Shown here piece by piece: positions 29,045-34,976 of a DNA stretch of 34,976 bases. The stretch comes from an uncultured Synergistales bacterium. GTDB taxonomy: Bacteria > Synergistota > Synergistia > Synergistales > Aminobacteriaceae. Made by a program: the position numbers and the translations under genes. Numbering within the stretch: position 1 is the stretch's first letter; every line of letters starts with the position of its first letter. The DNA is taken from the NCBI GenBank assembly GCA_905233455.1, contig CAJOES010000006.1:1-34976 (forward strand). The letters run 5' to 3'. Under the pieces are notes generated by a model that did not search any database, was not told where the DNA came from, and saw nothing but the letters and a program-made list of their open reading frames with translations.

Positions 29045-29170
29045 AAAGATGATTCTATCAGTCAGCAAAAATCATGATGGCTTATTGGGCAATTTATACT
29101 TTGTTCATTATAATGTTAAAGTTTTAACCCTGATACAATAAAAAATTCAGGAAGGAGATGCTTATATTTC

Positions 29171-30643
29171 ATGAAAAAATTTTTTGCTTTACTATTAGTT
29201 TCAGCGTGTTTCGTGTCGCTGGTTCTCAGTCCGGCATATTCCGCAGTAAGAAATCAGAACAGCACATATTTTATTGATGACGCTGTGGGGTCTGCACAGA
29301 TCAAGAACGGCAACAAGGCAGCAGCCAGGGAAGATGCAAGGCGGGCGGCATACCGTGATGCAATCGATAAGGCTTTAGGCTCATTAGTTCCCGGCATATC
29401 CGAGCGCACAACTTACAGCACCATAGAGAACAGGGTATATTCTCAGGCTTCAGGACTGGTGAAAAACTTTAAGGTTACCAGTGAAAATATTGAAGGAGAC
29501 ACCCTGACTATAACAGGAACATGCAGTGTCAGCGAGAAGAGTTTTGACGGTATACTCGGCCCTGAAGTCATTTCTATGCTTGGGAATCCCCGCGTTATGA
29601 TCGTGGTAGACCAGCCCGCGGCAGATGATGACAAGAAGAAAAAAGCCCCGGCAATATCTCCGGTTGAGACGGAATTAATGTCGCTGTTTGAGAAGGCCGG
29701 CTATCTCATCGTAGACATGGATCAGGCACGGACGCTTCTTGCGCTGGACAAAAGCAATGCCTACAACGACACAGAGAAGCTCATCGGTGCGGCCAAGACT
29801 CTTAGGGCAGATGTCATCGTAGTAGCAAAAACTACGTCGGGATCCTCAAGCACAACAGTACACGGCGTGAAGATGTACAGGTCAAGCGGAAGTGTTCAGC
29901 TAAAGGCAGTGCAGACACAGACAGCCTACCAGATAGGGACTGCATCGTCTTCGGGATCTACGGGCTGGGGAGGCAGTCCTTCAGGCGGAAAGATCGTCAG
30001 CAACGGCATACGCAAGGCAACTGAAGAGATAATCTACAAGATAGCTTACAGGATGGCTTCTGCAGGTTCTGCGCTTGGCGGAATTACGGTAAATGTGAAG
30101 ATAGCAAATGCCTCGTTCAGGAATGTAGAGACTATCGAGGAACAGTTACGGAACTGGCTCGGATCAGCCGGAGAGATATTCGAGAGGGCATACGACAATA
30201 ATACGCTTGAGATTGATGTAGTATCGCCGAAAACTGCACGCAACGTAGCTTCATTCCTTTCGGACTTTGCGGACATTGAGAGCCTGACAGCACAGACCAT
30301 AAGTGCAAAGATCAAGCCTGCAACACCGAATGCACCTGTTGTGCCTGTGGGAGTCTCAACATTCAGCATTGCAGTCAAGATCGGCAACGTCAACAACAAC
30401 AAAGATGCTGAAGATATAGCGGCTGAACTGCGTAAATTCATCGGGTCGTCAGGAGAAGTCAGCAGCAGTTACGCAGATACTACAGCAAATATTACCGTAA
30501 CATATGCCGAGAACGCTCCCGGCATGAAGACAGCGCAGGAAATATCTTCATTCCTCAAGGATCAGAATATCAATATTGACAGCGTTGACAACAATTCGGT
30601 AAACGGCTGGAGAAAAGGCGGCATCGGCGGCTGGCTCTGGTAA
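29171..30643 (+). CDS. Exported FlgT-N-like protein with two C-terminal repeat domains
   Basis: Signal peptide; KNGNKAAAREDARRAAYRDAIDKALGSLV; C-terminal duplicated units ITVNVKIAN...EEQLRNWLGSAGEIFE... and FSIAVKIGN...AAELRKFIGSSGEVSS... Confidence 0.7.
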   Translation: MKKFFALLLVSACFVSLVLSPAYSAVRNQNSTYFIDDAVGSAQIKNGNKAAAREDARRAAYRDAIDKALGSLVPGISERTTYSTIENRVYSQASGLVKNFKVTSENIEGDTLTITGTCSVSEKSFDGILGPEVISMLGNPRVMIVVDQPAADDDKKKKAPAISPVETELMSLFEKAGYLIVDMDQARTLLALDKSNAYNDTEKLIGAAKTLRADVIVVAKTTSGSSSTTVHGVKMYRSSGSVQLKAVQTQTAYQIGTASSSGSTGWGGSPSGGKIVSNGIRKATEEIIYKIAYRMASAGSALGGITVNVKIANASFRNVETIEEQLRNWLGSAGEIFERAYDNNTLEIDVVSPKTARNVASFLSDFADIESLTAQTISAKIKPATPNAPVVPVGVSTFSIAVKIGNVNNNKDAEDIAAELRKFIGSSGEVSSSYADTTANITVTYAENAPGMKTAQEISSFLKDQNINIDSVDNNSVNGWRKGGIGGWLW

Positions 30644-30667
30644 AAATTTCAGGAGGTGAAAATTTAT

Positions 30668-31195
30668 ATGTCCAGAAAAATTTTAGCGTTAGTTGTATTC
30701 ATGATCATTGCATCGGCTTTCAGTGCTTATGGTGCGTCTAATGTCCTGCCCAAAAAGGGAGATGTAGCACTTCTGGTTGAAGGCGGTGATGAACAGCAGG
30801 TAAAGATTGCGGAAGTTCAGATCATCAATTCACTTACTGCACACGGCTACAGGGTTGTTGATGAAAAGAAGATGAAAGCGATGAAGGCGGCTTCTGTCCG
30901 TGCACAGGCGGCAAGGCTTGCGGCACAGGGAAACTTCAGCGCGATATTCAAGCTCAATGCCAGCTACAGTGTAGGAGCTACGATCGTTGCCCGGGTACAG
31001 GCAGGACAGCCCGTGCAGAATCAGTTCAAGCTGTTCACCGGTGATGCTACGGTGGCTATCACTGCGGCGACTTCCGGCGGCATCACTCTAGGAGGCAGGA
31101 CGGCTATGGCAAGGCAGGTAGGATATTCGGCGTATGAGGCTCAGATGAAGGCGATTCAGGCGGCAGTTGAGGACGGAATGTCCCAGATGTATTAG
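30668..31195 (+). CDS. Exported protein of the same operon, hypothetical
   Basis: Signal peptide RKILALVVFMIIASAFSAYGA; KIAEVQIINSLTAHGYRVVDEKKMKAMKAA; RBS aggaggtg. ATG preferred over the track GTG. Confidence 0.75.
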   Translation: MSRKILALVVFMIIASAFSAYGASNVLPKKGDVALLVEGGDEQQVKIAEVQIINSLTAHGYRVVDEKKMKAMKAASVRAQAARLAAQGNFSAIFKLNASYSVGATIVARVQAGQPVQNQFKLFTGDATVAITAATSGGITLGGRTAMARQVGYSAYEAQMKAIQAAVEDGMSQMY

Positions 31196-31208
31196 AGGAG
31201 GAATATTT

Positions 31209-31823
31209 ATGCAGCGTAAAATTTTTGCGGTTGTTGTGCTTTTTGTGCTGTGCTTGTCCGGCAGTGCATGGGCAAAACCAAGGCTGGCAGTGCGTGCATT
31301 CGAGAACAAGACGGAAGACGAGAAAGTCCCTGCAAGCGGAATCATGGACATGATGGTTACGGAACTGAGCAAGGCCGGGGTGTTTGAACTGGTTGAACGT
31401 GAGGCATTGAATTATGTTGCTGACGAAATCAATTTAGGCATGTCCGGGCTTATGGATCCCAGCACTGCACCGGCAGTAGGCAAAGTAAGGGGCGCGCAGT
31501 ACACCATGACCGGCGCAATATCACTCTTCTACTATGAGAAGAAAAGCAGAGGAATCAGAATACCCCTTATCGGAAGTTCAACGCAGACAAACACGGCTTA
31601 TGTTATGGTGGAAATAAGGATAATCGACAACTCGACAAGCGGTGTAGTCTACGCAATGAACAAGCTCGGTACGGCAAAACGCGGTACAAAGGGGATGACT
31701 CCGCTTGGTGATATTCTCATCGGTGCACGTGATGAGACGGAAGGCGGTGCTTTGTCGTCTGCGGCAAGAAACGCAGTAGTCCAGCATGTGAAGGCGATAA
31801 AAGCAATAGAGTGGAAGGAGTAA
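31209..31823 (+). CDS. CsgG-like exported protein
   Basis: KPRLAVRAFENKTEDEKVPASGIMDMMVTELSKAGVFELVEREALNYVADEINLGMSGLMD...GKVRGAQYTMTGAIS. RBS gaggaggaat. Confidence 0.82.
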   Translation: MQRKIFAVVVLFVLCLSGSAWAKPRLAVRAFENKTEDEKVPASGIMDMMVTELSKAGVFELVEREALNYVADEINLGMSGLMDPSTAPAVGKVRGAQYTMTGAISLFYYEKKSRGIRIPLIGSSTQTNTAYVMVEIRIIDNSTSGVVYAMNKLGTAKRGTKGMTPLGDILIGARDETEGGALSSAARNAVVQHVKAIKAIEWKE

Positions 31824-31826
31824 GCC

Positions 31827-32810
31827 ATGAACAGAAAGATACTTTGCGCAGTAATGCTAATGCTTCTGTTTGCGTTTCAGGCAGAAGCGGCAGACACGGG
31901 ACAGCCTTTGCGCATGGGCATAATACAGTTCCTCAGCCGTACAAAGGATGTCAGTGCAGATCAGGCGGCGGCTATAGGTGATGTTCTAGCGAGAATGCTC
32001 ACCAGCTCAAAGAGACTCACAATCATAGAACGCGACCAGATGGATGCTATTGCGGCCGAGCATCAGATGTCCACGTCAGGAGCATTCACGGATGATACTG
32101 CGCTTGCTGTAGGAAAGATTGCGGGCTGTCAGTATATGCTGTTCGGCGCGGTAACCAGCTATCAGCAGAGCGTGTCAACTACGGATATATGGCTTTGGGG
32201 TAAGACGGACTACTACGCTTCAACGACAATAGATGTCCGTATAGTTGATGTGAATACAACTAAGGTAGTTTTGTCGCTTTCAGAATCCGGCTCAACCCGT
32301 CAGTCAGGCACGAAGTTCAATTTTTACGGCATGAACAACCAGGAAAATATGGACTTTCGCGGGCTTGCTGCAGGAGCTATAGCTGACGCATCATCAAGAC
32401 TAAGCTACAAGGTGCTTTACGCTCTCACCGGTGAATCTGCTCAGGTGCTCAAGACCAGCAAGAAGGACGTAACCATCAATACGGGAGCAGTAAACGGCGC
32501 ACAAATGGGAGGAATGTACCGCGTATACATTGAGGGCGAGCAGATAAGGGGCATGAACGATGAAGTTCTCGGACGCAGGGAGAATAATATTGCTGTCGTG
32601 AAGATAACCGGAGTTCAGCGTGAGTTCAGCACAGCCCAGCTTGCACACAAACAAGCAGGAAGCATAGCCAATATTAAGCGCGGGGATAAGATATTTCCTG
32701 TAAGTGCTTCCGAGCTTAAGAAAATGATAGACAACAAGGAATTTCCCAAGAAAAGACCAAAGCAAATAAAACTAAGTGATGAGCAAAGAAAATTTTTAGG
32801 GGAGGATTAG
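31827..32810 (+). CDS. CsgG-like exported protein with FlgT-C-like C-terminal domain
   Basis: LRMGIIQFLSRTKDVSADQAAAIGDVLARMLTSSKRLTIIERDQMDAIAAEHQMSTSG...GKIAGCQYMLFGAVTSYQQ; then VTINTGAVNGAQMGGMYRVYIEGEQI...VVKITGVQREFSTAQL. Confidence 0.82.
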   Translation: MNRKILCAVMLMLLFAFQAEAADTGQPLRMGIIQFLSRTKDVSADQAAAIGDVLARMLTSSKRLTIIERDQMDAIAAEHQMSTSGAFTDDTALAVGKIAGCQYMLFGAVTSYQQSVSTTDIWLWGKTDYYASTTIDVRIVDVNTTKVVLSLSESGSTRQSGTKFNFYGMNNQENMDFRGLAAGAIADASSRLSYKVLYALTGESAQVLKTSKKDVTINTGAVNGAQMGGMYRVYIEGEQIRGMNDEVLGRRENNIAVVKITGVQREFSTAQLAHKQAGSIANIKRGDKIFPVSASELKKMIDNKEFPKKRPKQIKLSDEQRKFLGED

Positions 32811-32813
32811 TTC

Positions 32814-34976
32814 GTGGAATATCTTATAGCTTTATACACCGGCAAAAAGATTTACACCTACACCCTAAAGAACGGAATAACGGCAACTGTAGGAGATACC
32901 AAGAACGACAATATTTCCGCAGCTGATTCGGGACTGGGGAGCGCGTATGCTGTTCTTGCGTGTGATGCTGGAGGAGTCAGAATACTCACCCGGCAGCCTT
33001 TCAGTATCGGGAATGACTCTGCAACTGACAGGATACTATCTGCCGGAGATGTCGTAACTCTCACCGACAAAATCACGCTTGCAGTTTTCCGGAGCGTATG
33101 CAGTCTTGAGTCTCCCATAGACCTGAACGGAATAGATGAGCTTGCGCTTGGCCGTTCCTACAACGACAACGATATTTGCCTCAAAGCCCCTGAAGTGTCA
33201 TCACGGCATTTGCTGCTGCGCAGGGAGGGCATACGCTGGACGGTTACGGATATAGGGAGCAGAAACGGAACGTTTGTTGACGGGACACTTGTTGATGTGG
33301 ATACCCCACTGATTGCTGAGGATGTGAATATTTTTGCTGGCGGGTACATCTTTCACATACACAGCGACGAGCTTAGATTCACCAATACACCTCATGAGAT
33401 AGAGCTTGTACCGGAGATTGCAGAGGCGGTTGAACGGAAAAAATCACTGCCTAAGCGTTACCCGTTCTTCCAGCGTTCACCGAGAATCAGGACTCGTGCC
33501 GAAAAGGTTGACTGTGAAATATTCCAGCCGCCTAATGTCGGAAACAAACCCCAGCTTTCATGGCTGTCTCTGCTCCTTCCGCCAATCATGATGGTTATTG
33601 TCATGGGAGGTGTAGCCACTGTAACAAAGAATTACAACATGCTGATATATTCCCTGCCTATGTCAATGATCTCCGTTGTAGTAAGCATAATCAACACAAA
33701 GACTAACTTAAAGAAGTGGCAGGAGAAGAACGGGCTAGCAATGGAAAAATATTCCGAGCACCTGAAAGAGCGAGAGAAAACCATAACTGACGCTGAAGGA
33801 GCATATATCGCAGCACTTTCTACGGCAAGCCCTGGCGTTGATGAGTGCATAGCTATAGCAGATAGTGTAAGCCGCAGGTTATGGGAACGCACGCCGCGTG
33901 ATAATGACTTCCTCAGCGTAAGGCTTGGGACTGGCACAATAGCATCAAACGTTGATGTCAAGATACCGCAGGAGCAGATTTCTCTTGAAGAAAACCCGTT
34001 CACGGCACAGACAGCACTGCTCAAAGAAAGCCATACAGTGCTAACCGGCGTTCCTGTATGTCATTCGTTCCTGAGCTATCCTATAACGGGGCTTGCAGGA
34101 AGGCGCGAGGACGTTATGCAGACTGTAAGGCGTATAGTTATGGATATTGCATGTCATCATTCATACGAGGACGTGAAGATAATATGCGTCTATCCTGAAG
34201 AGGAACAAGAACAGTGGGACTGGCTCAGATGGCTTCCGCATGTCTGGAATGCTGCAAGGGCTAAAAGGTATATTGCATGTACCACTAAAGAAGCCAGAAC
34301 TATGCTTCGTGAAGCAGGGGATACATTGAAGCTCAGGCGCAGGGAGGCAAAAGAAAACAGCTCAAGCAGGGAGTTCGTGCCGGAGACTCCGTTCTACTTC
34401 ATGATTCTTGCAGACAGGGATCTGACAGAAGCGAGCGGCGAACAGTTCTTGCCGGAAAGTGATGTGCTGGGGTTTGCGGCATTGTACGCATACGGGGACA
34501 TCGGCGCACTTCCGGGAGAATGCCAGAGCGTGATCATGTGCGGGGAAAAACCGTTCATCCAGAACACCAGACATGACGCAAAGGACAGCAACATATATTA
34601 CATTCCCGACAGCGTAAGGCTCTCACAGGCAGACTCTTTCGCCCGCTCACTTGCACCGGTAAGGCTGCTGCAGTCAGGCGGAGGAAGCAAGATGCCCAAG
34701 AGCGTAACATTCCTTCAGGGGTTCAACGCAAAGACTATTGAGGATCTTGACGTTATAGGCAGATGGGGATCAAGCCACTCTGAAAAGAGCTTGGCCGCAC
34801 CTATAGGCATTAAGGAGAACGGGGACGTTTTCGAGTTTGACGTTTTCGAAAAAGCTATGGGGCCTCACGGTATAGCTGCAGGAACTTCGGGAAGCGGCAA
34901 GAGTGAAATGCTCACAACATGGCTTTTATCTATGGCACTGACATTTTCTCCCGACGACGTTAATTTTGCGTTGATT
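32814..34976 (+). CDS. essC: EssC-like T7SSb FtsK/SpoIIIE-type ATPase with N-terminal FHA (partial, runs off the window)
   Basis: GTG start. FHA: ELALGRSYNDNDICLKAPEVSSRHLLLRREGIRWTVTDIGSRNGTFVDGT. TM pair LLPPIMMVIVMGGVATV / YSLPMSMISVVVSI. RLGTG; Walker A GPHGIAAGTSGSGKSEMLTTWLLSMALTFSPDDVNFALI. Confidence 0.88.
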   Translation, partial: MEYLIALYTGKKIYTYTLKNGITATVGDTKNDNISAADSGLGSAYAVLACDAGGVRILTRQPFSIGNDSATDRILSAGDVVTLTDKITLAVFRSVCSLESPIDLNGIDELALGRSYNDNDICLKAPEVSSRHLLLRREGIRWTVTDIGSRNGTFVDGTLVDVDTPLIAEDVNIFAGGYIFHIHSDELRFTNTPHEIELVPEIAEAVERKKSLPKRYPFFQRSPRIRTRAEKVDCEIFQPPNVGNKPQLSWLSLLLPPIMMVIVMGGVATVTKNYNMLIYSLPMSMISVVVSIINTKTNLKKWQEKNGLAMEKYSEHLKEREKTITDAEGAYIAALSTASPGVDECIAIADSVSRRLWERTPRDNDFLSVRLGTGTIASNVDVKIPQEQISLEENPFTAQTALLKESHTVLTGVPVCHSFLSYPITGLAGRREDVMQTVRRIVMDIACHHSYEDVKIICVYPEEEQEQWDWLRWLPHVWNAARAKRYIACTTKEARTMLREAGDTLKLRRREAKENSSSREFVPETPFYFMILADRDLTEASGEQFLPESDVLGFAALYAYGDIGALPGECQSVIMCGEKPFIQNTRHDAKDSNIYYIPDSVRLSQADSFARSLAPVRLLQSGGGSKMPKSVTFLQGFNAKTIEDLDVIGRWGSSHSEKSLAAPIGIKENGDVFEFDVFEKAMGPHGIAAGTSGSGKSEMLTTWLLSMALTFSPDDVNFALI

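Follow-up and report, generated by a model that had tools for sequence, protein, structure and literature searches.

An EssC-type secretion locus in a diderm Synergistales bacterium, encoded directly behind exported CsgG- and FlgT-like proteins

Type VII secretion systems (T7SSs) are known from bacteria with one membrane and from mycobacteria. According to Garrett, Higginson and Palmer (2024, PMC11217815), subtypes T7SSc to T7SSj come solely from Bacillota and Actinomycetota, Synergistota is not among the phyla given for T7SSa to T7SSj, and switching by a kinase and a phosphatase is proposed for T7SSd, T7SSe and T7SSj. The range of T7SS toxins has been given as Bacillota, Actinomycetota and Chloroflexi (PMC3482391), and in Staphylococcus aureus C-terminal variants of the motor protein EssC are paired with distinct substrate sets (PMC5994694). 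Here we describe a T7SS locus, complete to all appearance, of an uncultured gut bacterium of the Synergistales. Its essC is the last of five open reading frames (ORF1 to ORF5) that run in one direction through positions 29171-34976 of the window, by which we mean the entire 34,976-nt contig CAJOES010000006.1 (C6) of assembly GCA_905233455.1 (2.49 Mb, 166 contigs); the contig stops within essC. We lean, without great assurance, towards a diderm T7SS in which the four exported proteins ORF1 to ORF4 would form periplasmic and outer-membrane rings that pass substrates onward. The open-access literature yielded no relevant account of a T7SS in Synergistota, Synergistetes or Synergistaceae, or of one with CsgG.

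ORF5 had been annotated on first pass as an FHA-transmembrane (TM)-FtsK/SpoIIIE protein with EssC architecture, and this was borne out: FHA (2.3e-13) and FtsK_SpoIIIE were matched in Pfam, two TM segments are present, and NCBIfam TIGR03928 names the protein EssC (6.8e-122 over the first half, under the full-length cut-off, as the contig end truncates the gene). The last 81 nt of C6 are the ends of two further contigs, C136 and C137, each of which extends the essC frame by approximately 800 codons; these two have 99 nt in common at the far end, which runs on into C130. The joins were made from exact overlaps, not from reads. The second half of EssC matched TIGR03928 at 2.8e-163, and the protein combines its TM part with three FtsK-like ATPase domains (Walker A at 690, 1040, and 1310). 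A plain FtsK/SpoIIIE DNA translocase was rejected, as EssC and EccC models scored far above FtsK and the genome's FtsK lies on C19. Past essC come yukD, a coiled-coil gene on the reverse strand, two WXG100 genes, two small genes without assignment, two more WXG100-like genes, and a gene whose product of 542-548 aa has a WXG-like head; C130 carries a PP2C phosphatase (1.6e-50) and a 639-aa Ser/Thr kinase (4.7e-38, HRD and DFG intact, approximately eight TM segments), followed by hisB and hisC in the reverse orientation. The WXG100 and EsaB (YukD-like) genes that were sought to the right of the window are therefore present in C136 and C137, with YukD/EsaB PF08817 above cut-off (1.9e-6 in C136 and 1.1e-8 in C137) and both WXG100 proteins matching PF06013 (1.2e-12 and 2.3e-12), as well as TIGR03930 above cut-off, with WEG/WHG motifs. 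In a PHROGs search only the kinase matched. EssB (PF10140) was absent from all six essC-positive genomes searched, with the Bacillus subtilis control positive. No candidate for EsaA or EssA was recognised in the conserved essC neighbourhood, no genome-wide model search having been made for them.

The locus resembles T7SSb (Ess/Yuk) of Bacillota in its FHA-TM-FtsK EssC, EsaB/YukD, WXG100 proteins, WXG-headed candidate substrates and EssC C-terminal variants tied to substrate sets (cf. PMC5994694), but differs in its diderm host, its exported CsgG/FlgT module and the presence of an active-looking kinase and a phosphatase in place of EssB and, apparently, of EsaA and EssA. It is therefore not a T7SSb locus. 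T7SSe and T7SSj, as presented in the accessible part of PMC11217815, are closer: like the present locus, they have an FHA-bearing EssC (TsxC) with the FHA phosphothreonine motif, a YukD-like TsxB, WXG100 proteins, a membrane Ser/Thr kinase (TsxD) and a PPM phosphatase (TsxF), and no EssB, and the WXG100 pair is a T7SSe feature. That part of the source mentions no CsgG/FlgT-like module for T7SSc to T7SSj. Of the T7SSe/T7SSj components it describes, TsxI (Ig-repeat envelope protein), TsxJ (DUF6382-FHA) and TsxK were not seen in the host locus; among the loci examined, an Ig-repeat surface protein occurred only in L046 and an FHA protein only in L053. In a tree without TseC or TsjC, the Synergistota EssCs group together on a long branch (1.23), separate from ten Bacillota sequences with 100/100 support. 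Judged by gene content and by what is accessible of PMC11217815, the Synergistota T7SS appears to fit no described subtype exactly, with T7SSe/T7SSj nearest, and is probably a new subtype.

The five-gene run has gaps of 12, 13, 3, and 3 nt, as short as annotated, and ORF1 to ORF4 all start with hydrophobic Sec-type signal peptides of the signal peptidase I type, in agreement with the four exported proteins of the first-pass annotation. Its count of two CsgG-like proteins and two with FlgT modules holds only if ORF4 is counted twice, and ORF2 matches neither in Pfam. ORF1 matched FlgT_N (5.4e-8), ORF3 matched CsgG (3e-23, domain positions 8-199 of 210), and ORF4 matched CsgG (2.8e-17) with FlgT_C/FlgT_M at just 0.003, under the cut-off; one homologue of ORF2 matched CsgG weakly (0.005). 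When profiles were compared with the PDB, ORF3 matched CsgG (3.7e-6, the first membrane hairpin aligned at near-equal length), as did ORF4 (1.2e-5), and ORF1 matched Campylobacter jejuni FlgP (9hmf, E = 0.005); single-sequence phmmer searches of the PDB with ORF3 and ORF4 gave no match. The ORF3 model (predicted local distance difference test, pLDDT, 72), a monomer prediction with its hairpin loops at low confidence, had CsgG as its top Foldseek matches, both as pre-pore (4uv2, 3e-10) and as membrane-bound pore (4uv3, 4.8e-9). The ORF1 model (pLDDT 74, predicted template modelling score, pTM, 0.43) matched the Vibrio LPHT ring (8z5n, 1.5e-10) and FlgT (3w1e, 2.2e-9), the global TM score against 3w1e being low (0.22-0.28). 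Profiles and models thus agree with the CsgG/FlgT relationship claimed for the exported proteins, ORF3 pointing to CsgG and ORF1 to FlgT and the LPHT ring. The alpha/beta fold is also that of LpoB, PelC and LptE, and therefore the fold by itself is no proof of a pore.

The host is a Synergistota metagenome-assembled genome (MAG), and Omp85/BamA (6/6) and FlhA (all six) were found in the essC-positive genomes of its genus that were tested; because both are present, the host is read as a flagellated diderm. Its named relatives comprise rumen and termite-gut MAGs of Synergistaceae or Synergistales, as well as a MAG of Fretibacterium and Synergistales bacterium MS502-76. Among 188 Synergistota species genomes, this EssC type occurred in 23, from 7 genera and two families. 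ORF1 was found in 23/23 essC-positive and 57/165 essC-negative genomes (P = 3.6e-10) and, within the host genus, in 14/14 essC-positive and 12/29 essC-negative species (P = 1.5e-4); these values overstate the association because species are not independent. At least one of ORF1 to ORF4 lay upstream of essC on the same strand in all 18 loci that had upstream sequence, mostly all four and in order, so the essC-csgG linkage that the first-pass annotation wished to see surveyed is conserved. The downstream order YukD-WXG-WXG-U151-U104-WXG-WXG-substrate-PP2C-kinase was recurrent. Since gene order recurs in relatives and co-occurrence is significant, the five-gene arrangement goes beyond chance. Distances of ORF1, ORF2 and ORF3 follow those of EssC (Spearman 0.87, 0.83, and 0.71, respectively), a correlation that shared species history alone could produce.

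EssC of the Synergistota type was also found in three termite-gut MAGs assigned to Bacillota (L094, L099, L103; their labels are Clostridiales Family XIII, Peptococcaceae and Bacillota), and these EssCs nest beside those of termite Synergistaceae (98/97). Omp85 and CsgG were absent from the three genomes, with the Synergistales control MS502-76 positive for both. The sole complete locus, on a long contig of L094, encodes EssC, PP2C, WXG-like proteins, a LytTR regulator ahead of essC, and a kinase fused to two SLH and five Ig (BIg_2) repeats; ORF1 to ORF4 are absent from it, as they are from ten further Bacillota essC loci. In 395 genomes of the order of L094, no other EssC exceeded 37 percent identity to that of L094. 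Such isolation is expected under horizontal transfer, by which EssC apparently reached termite-gut Bacillota. That L094 is a misbinned Synergistota fragment is disfavoured by the SLH kinase and by composition, which is closer to that of its own bin (0.97 vs 0.91). If ORF1 to ORF4 have an outer-membrane role, their absence from monoderm genomes that carry this EssC clade would be expected.

Several observations weigh against a conduit formed by ORF1 to ORF4. CsgG requires a lipobox for insertion into the outer membrane, and ORF1 to ORF4 have neither a conserved lipobox nor a conserved cysteine. Confidence in the ORF1 and ORF3 models is moderate, and the Bacillota contrast consists of three MAGs with one complete locus, misbinning being its main caveat. 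The composition of the module also varies among loci (ORF1-2 only, ORF3-4 only, or ORF3-4 past the kinase). Furthermore, the module occurs on its own in the 57 essC-less genomes, mostly flagellated; in genomes without essC, ORF1, LPP20-like small genes (a similarity judged by eye, Pfam giving no match), ORF2, ORF3 and ORF4 likewise cluster. Across the phylum the module correlates with flagella (73/130 vs 7/58; ORF1-FlhA, P = 5e-9). It is therefore not specific to the T7SS, and an essC-specific CsgG module was rejected. These data fit an account, unlikely but by no means negligible, in which the T7SS is genuine and the module is general or flagella-related (FlgO/FlgP/FlgT-like), sharing just regulation and position with it, and in which substrates, peptidoglycan hydrolases among them, would work within the periplasm or the wall, or else exit otherwise. 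The top structural matches of ORF1 are indeed flagellar H/T-ring proteins, and candidate substrates of relatives bear CHAP or phage-lysozyme domains, as peptidoglycan hydrolases acting in the wall might. ORF1 shares FlgT_N, the LPHT/FlgT model matches and the FlgP profile match with FlgO/FlgP/FlgT and the Vibrio ring, but unlike flagellar FlgT it sits in a secretion operon, not with flagellar genes, and is missing from 17 species of its host genus that have flagella, while every essC carrier of that genus has it; a purely flagellar module is weakened by this. Further points against a merely general or flagella-related module are that, within the host genus, ORF1 copies linked to essC group in a single clade (100/100) next to the solo copies, that the last gaps up to essC are of 3 nt, and that the module is missing where the system sits in monoderm genomes. 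In the trees, the essC-linked state of ORF1 switches 3 to 4 times. Given the essC-less clusters, these trees and the partial flagellar association, the module therefore seems to predate its T7SS linkage and to have been recruited, or to serve more than one machine.

Absence of WXG100 genes, unconserved linkage, a monoderm host or a lack of CsgG/FlgT relation, each named beforehand as speaking against a diderm T7SS with an exported conduit, was in no case observed. Of that proposal, the sequence data support the set of T7SS genes, the two-membraned host, the conservation of the linkage, the CsgG fold and, less firmly, the FlgT fold; as to its remaining part, we infer ring assembly, alignment with EssC and substrate passage, and a conduit role of ORF1 to ORF4 for T7SS substrates is plausible. 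A broader scenario, to which we give somewhat less than an even chance, is that a distinct T7SS subtype of a lipopolysaccharide-type diderm phylum took over a ring module of CsgG/FlgT type to serve as its dedicated periplasmic and outer-membrane conduit, and that the module was shed when the system passed to termite-gut Bacillota, which are monoderm, the SLH/Ig repeats of the kinase replacing the outer part.

CsgG handles Sec-exported clients, and ORF1 to ORF4 might form a separate, curli-like path across one membrane for such clients, travelling with the T7SS since both serve surface interaction. ORF3 and ORF4 resemble the curli channel in their Pfam CsgG match and in CsgG being the top match of both the profile and the model of ORF3, and differ from it in lacking a lipobox and in having at least two tandem paralogues. 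In favour of a separate path, in three loci (L046:12390-16085, L050:5794-7404, L052:12466-13581) a Sec-exported surface protein, with Ig repeats in L046, is encoded between ORF4 and essC. This path is nevertheless improbable: most loci have no such protein, CsgA/B/E/F-like genes were not recognised in the loci, and ORF1 to ORF4 are tied more strictly to essC than to any Sec-exported client. The surface protein ends in Gly-Cys, a TM segment and an Arg-rich tail, which resemble a Synergist-CTERM sorting signal but gave no model match.

The contig break at essC with two alternative continuations, together with stop-interrupted essC copies in some relatives, would also be expected of a decayed or misassembled locus without a working system. 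We regard this as highly improbable, as open essC frames of approximately 1500 aa occur in many species, Walker, FHA, kinase and WXG motifs are retained, and order is conserved across genera. EssC residues of C136 and C137 are the same to approximately position 893 and then show approximately 60-85 percent identity, with still greater divergence in the small genes and the candidate substrate. A tandem duplication was rejected because the assembly holds only one N-terminal essC; C136 and C137 thus most likely represent two alleles or strains differing in the EssC C-terminal part and substrates, in the manner of the S. aureus EssC variants (PMC5994694).

Other variants were seen along the loci. 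At the window end, an assembly bubble (L005/L006) comprises two 7.3-kb essC continuations, identical over 99 nt at either end, whose differences in the EssC C-terminal part and substrate genes look like strain-level EssC variants. The reverse-strand coiled-coil gene (L005:4094-4537, L006:4087-4629), which separates yukD from the WXG100 genes, encodes one C-terminal TM segment and an unequal number of KIEAVDQKLSG repeats in the two alleles. In L047:12453-13958 (genome G048), a second, partial essC, possibly a tandem or decayed copy, directly follows yukD. Three or four tandem CsgG-like genes, one of approximately 800-850 aa, lie upstream of essC in L050 and L052, and an ORF4-like protein bears ankyrin-like repeats in L057:17422-19998. 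WXG-headed proteins that carry a CHAP or phage-lysozyme domain (L055:1271-2167, L052:3745-4848, L049:1223-2074, L094:13032-13712) are candidate peptidoglycan-hydrolase substrates of the T7SS. In L074 (genome G124, 71 percent complete), genes for an FHA-RDD protein, two more FHA-like proteins, PP2C and a kinase come after the ORF1-4 module, but no essC was found. Features of the window are given in Table 1.

Table 1 Features at the right end of the window, by position
Feature	Position	Strand	Remarks
Promoter-like TGGGCA-17-TATAAT, 5′ of ORF1	29086..29114	+	10/12 matches; chance occurrence expected in region
Strong GGAAGGAG ribosome site	directly 5′ of 29171 (ORF1 start), after the promoter-like element	+	
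ORF1, exported, FlgT/LipL46-like, 490 aa	29171..30643	+	FlgT_N/LPP20-type N domain, FlgT/CsgG-like core
ORF2, exported, 179 aa	30656..31195	+	conserved in module; no Pfam match of its own
ORF3, exported, CsgG family, 204 aa	31209..31823	+	CsgG domain nearly complete, both membrane-hairpin regions; no lipobox
ORF4, exported, CsgG family, 327 aa	31827..32810	+	C-terminal domain weakly FlgT_C-like
essC (ORF5), 5′ half, 721 codons	32814..34976, open at contig end	+	rest in C136/C137, total ~1498 aa
EssC FHA domain	33147..33311	+	phosphothreonine-binding pattern GR..SSRH..RNG retained
EssC two TM segments	33549..33692	+	hydropathy; residues 246-293
EssC ATPase domain 1 Walker A, GTSGSGKS	34881..34904	+	

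In the proposed diderm T7SS, EssC, with its FHA domain, two TM segments and three ATPase domains, would act with YukD as the inner-membrane motor, and the WXG100 pairs and WXG-headed proteins would be the likely substrates. Because EssC keeps the FHA phosphothreonine pattern and the kinase keeps HRD and DFG, the kinase and phosphatase may switch this motor; they probably would do so on assembly, through the FHA domain, replacing EssB. Beyond the inner membrane, the FlgT/LPHT-ring-like ORF1 and the two CsgG-family proteins ORF3 and ORF4, with the small partner ORF2, would probably form stacked rings. The CHAP and phage-lysozyme proteins of relatives might attack the walls of competitors or open the producer's own wall for the apparatus.

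Even for mycobacteria it is an open question how a T7SS gets past the second membrane. Synergistota are diderm but unrelated to mycobacteria, and their T7SS, with its linked genes for candidate outer-membrane rings, gives this question named proteins, while monoderm genomes with the same motor clade but without ORF1 to ORF4 offer a natural contrast. The finding also extends the range of T7SSs past Bacillota, Actinomycetota and Chloroflexi (the T7SS-toxin range of PMC3482391) and may tie this extension to phospho-regulation.

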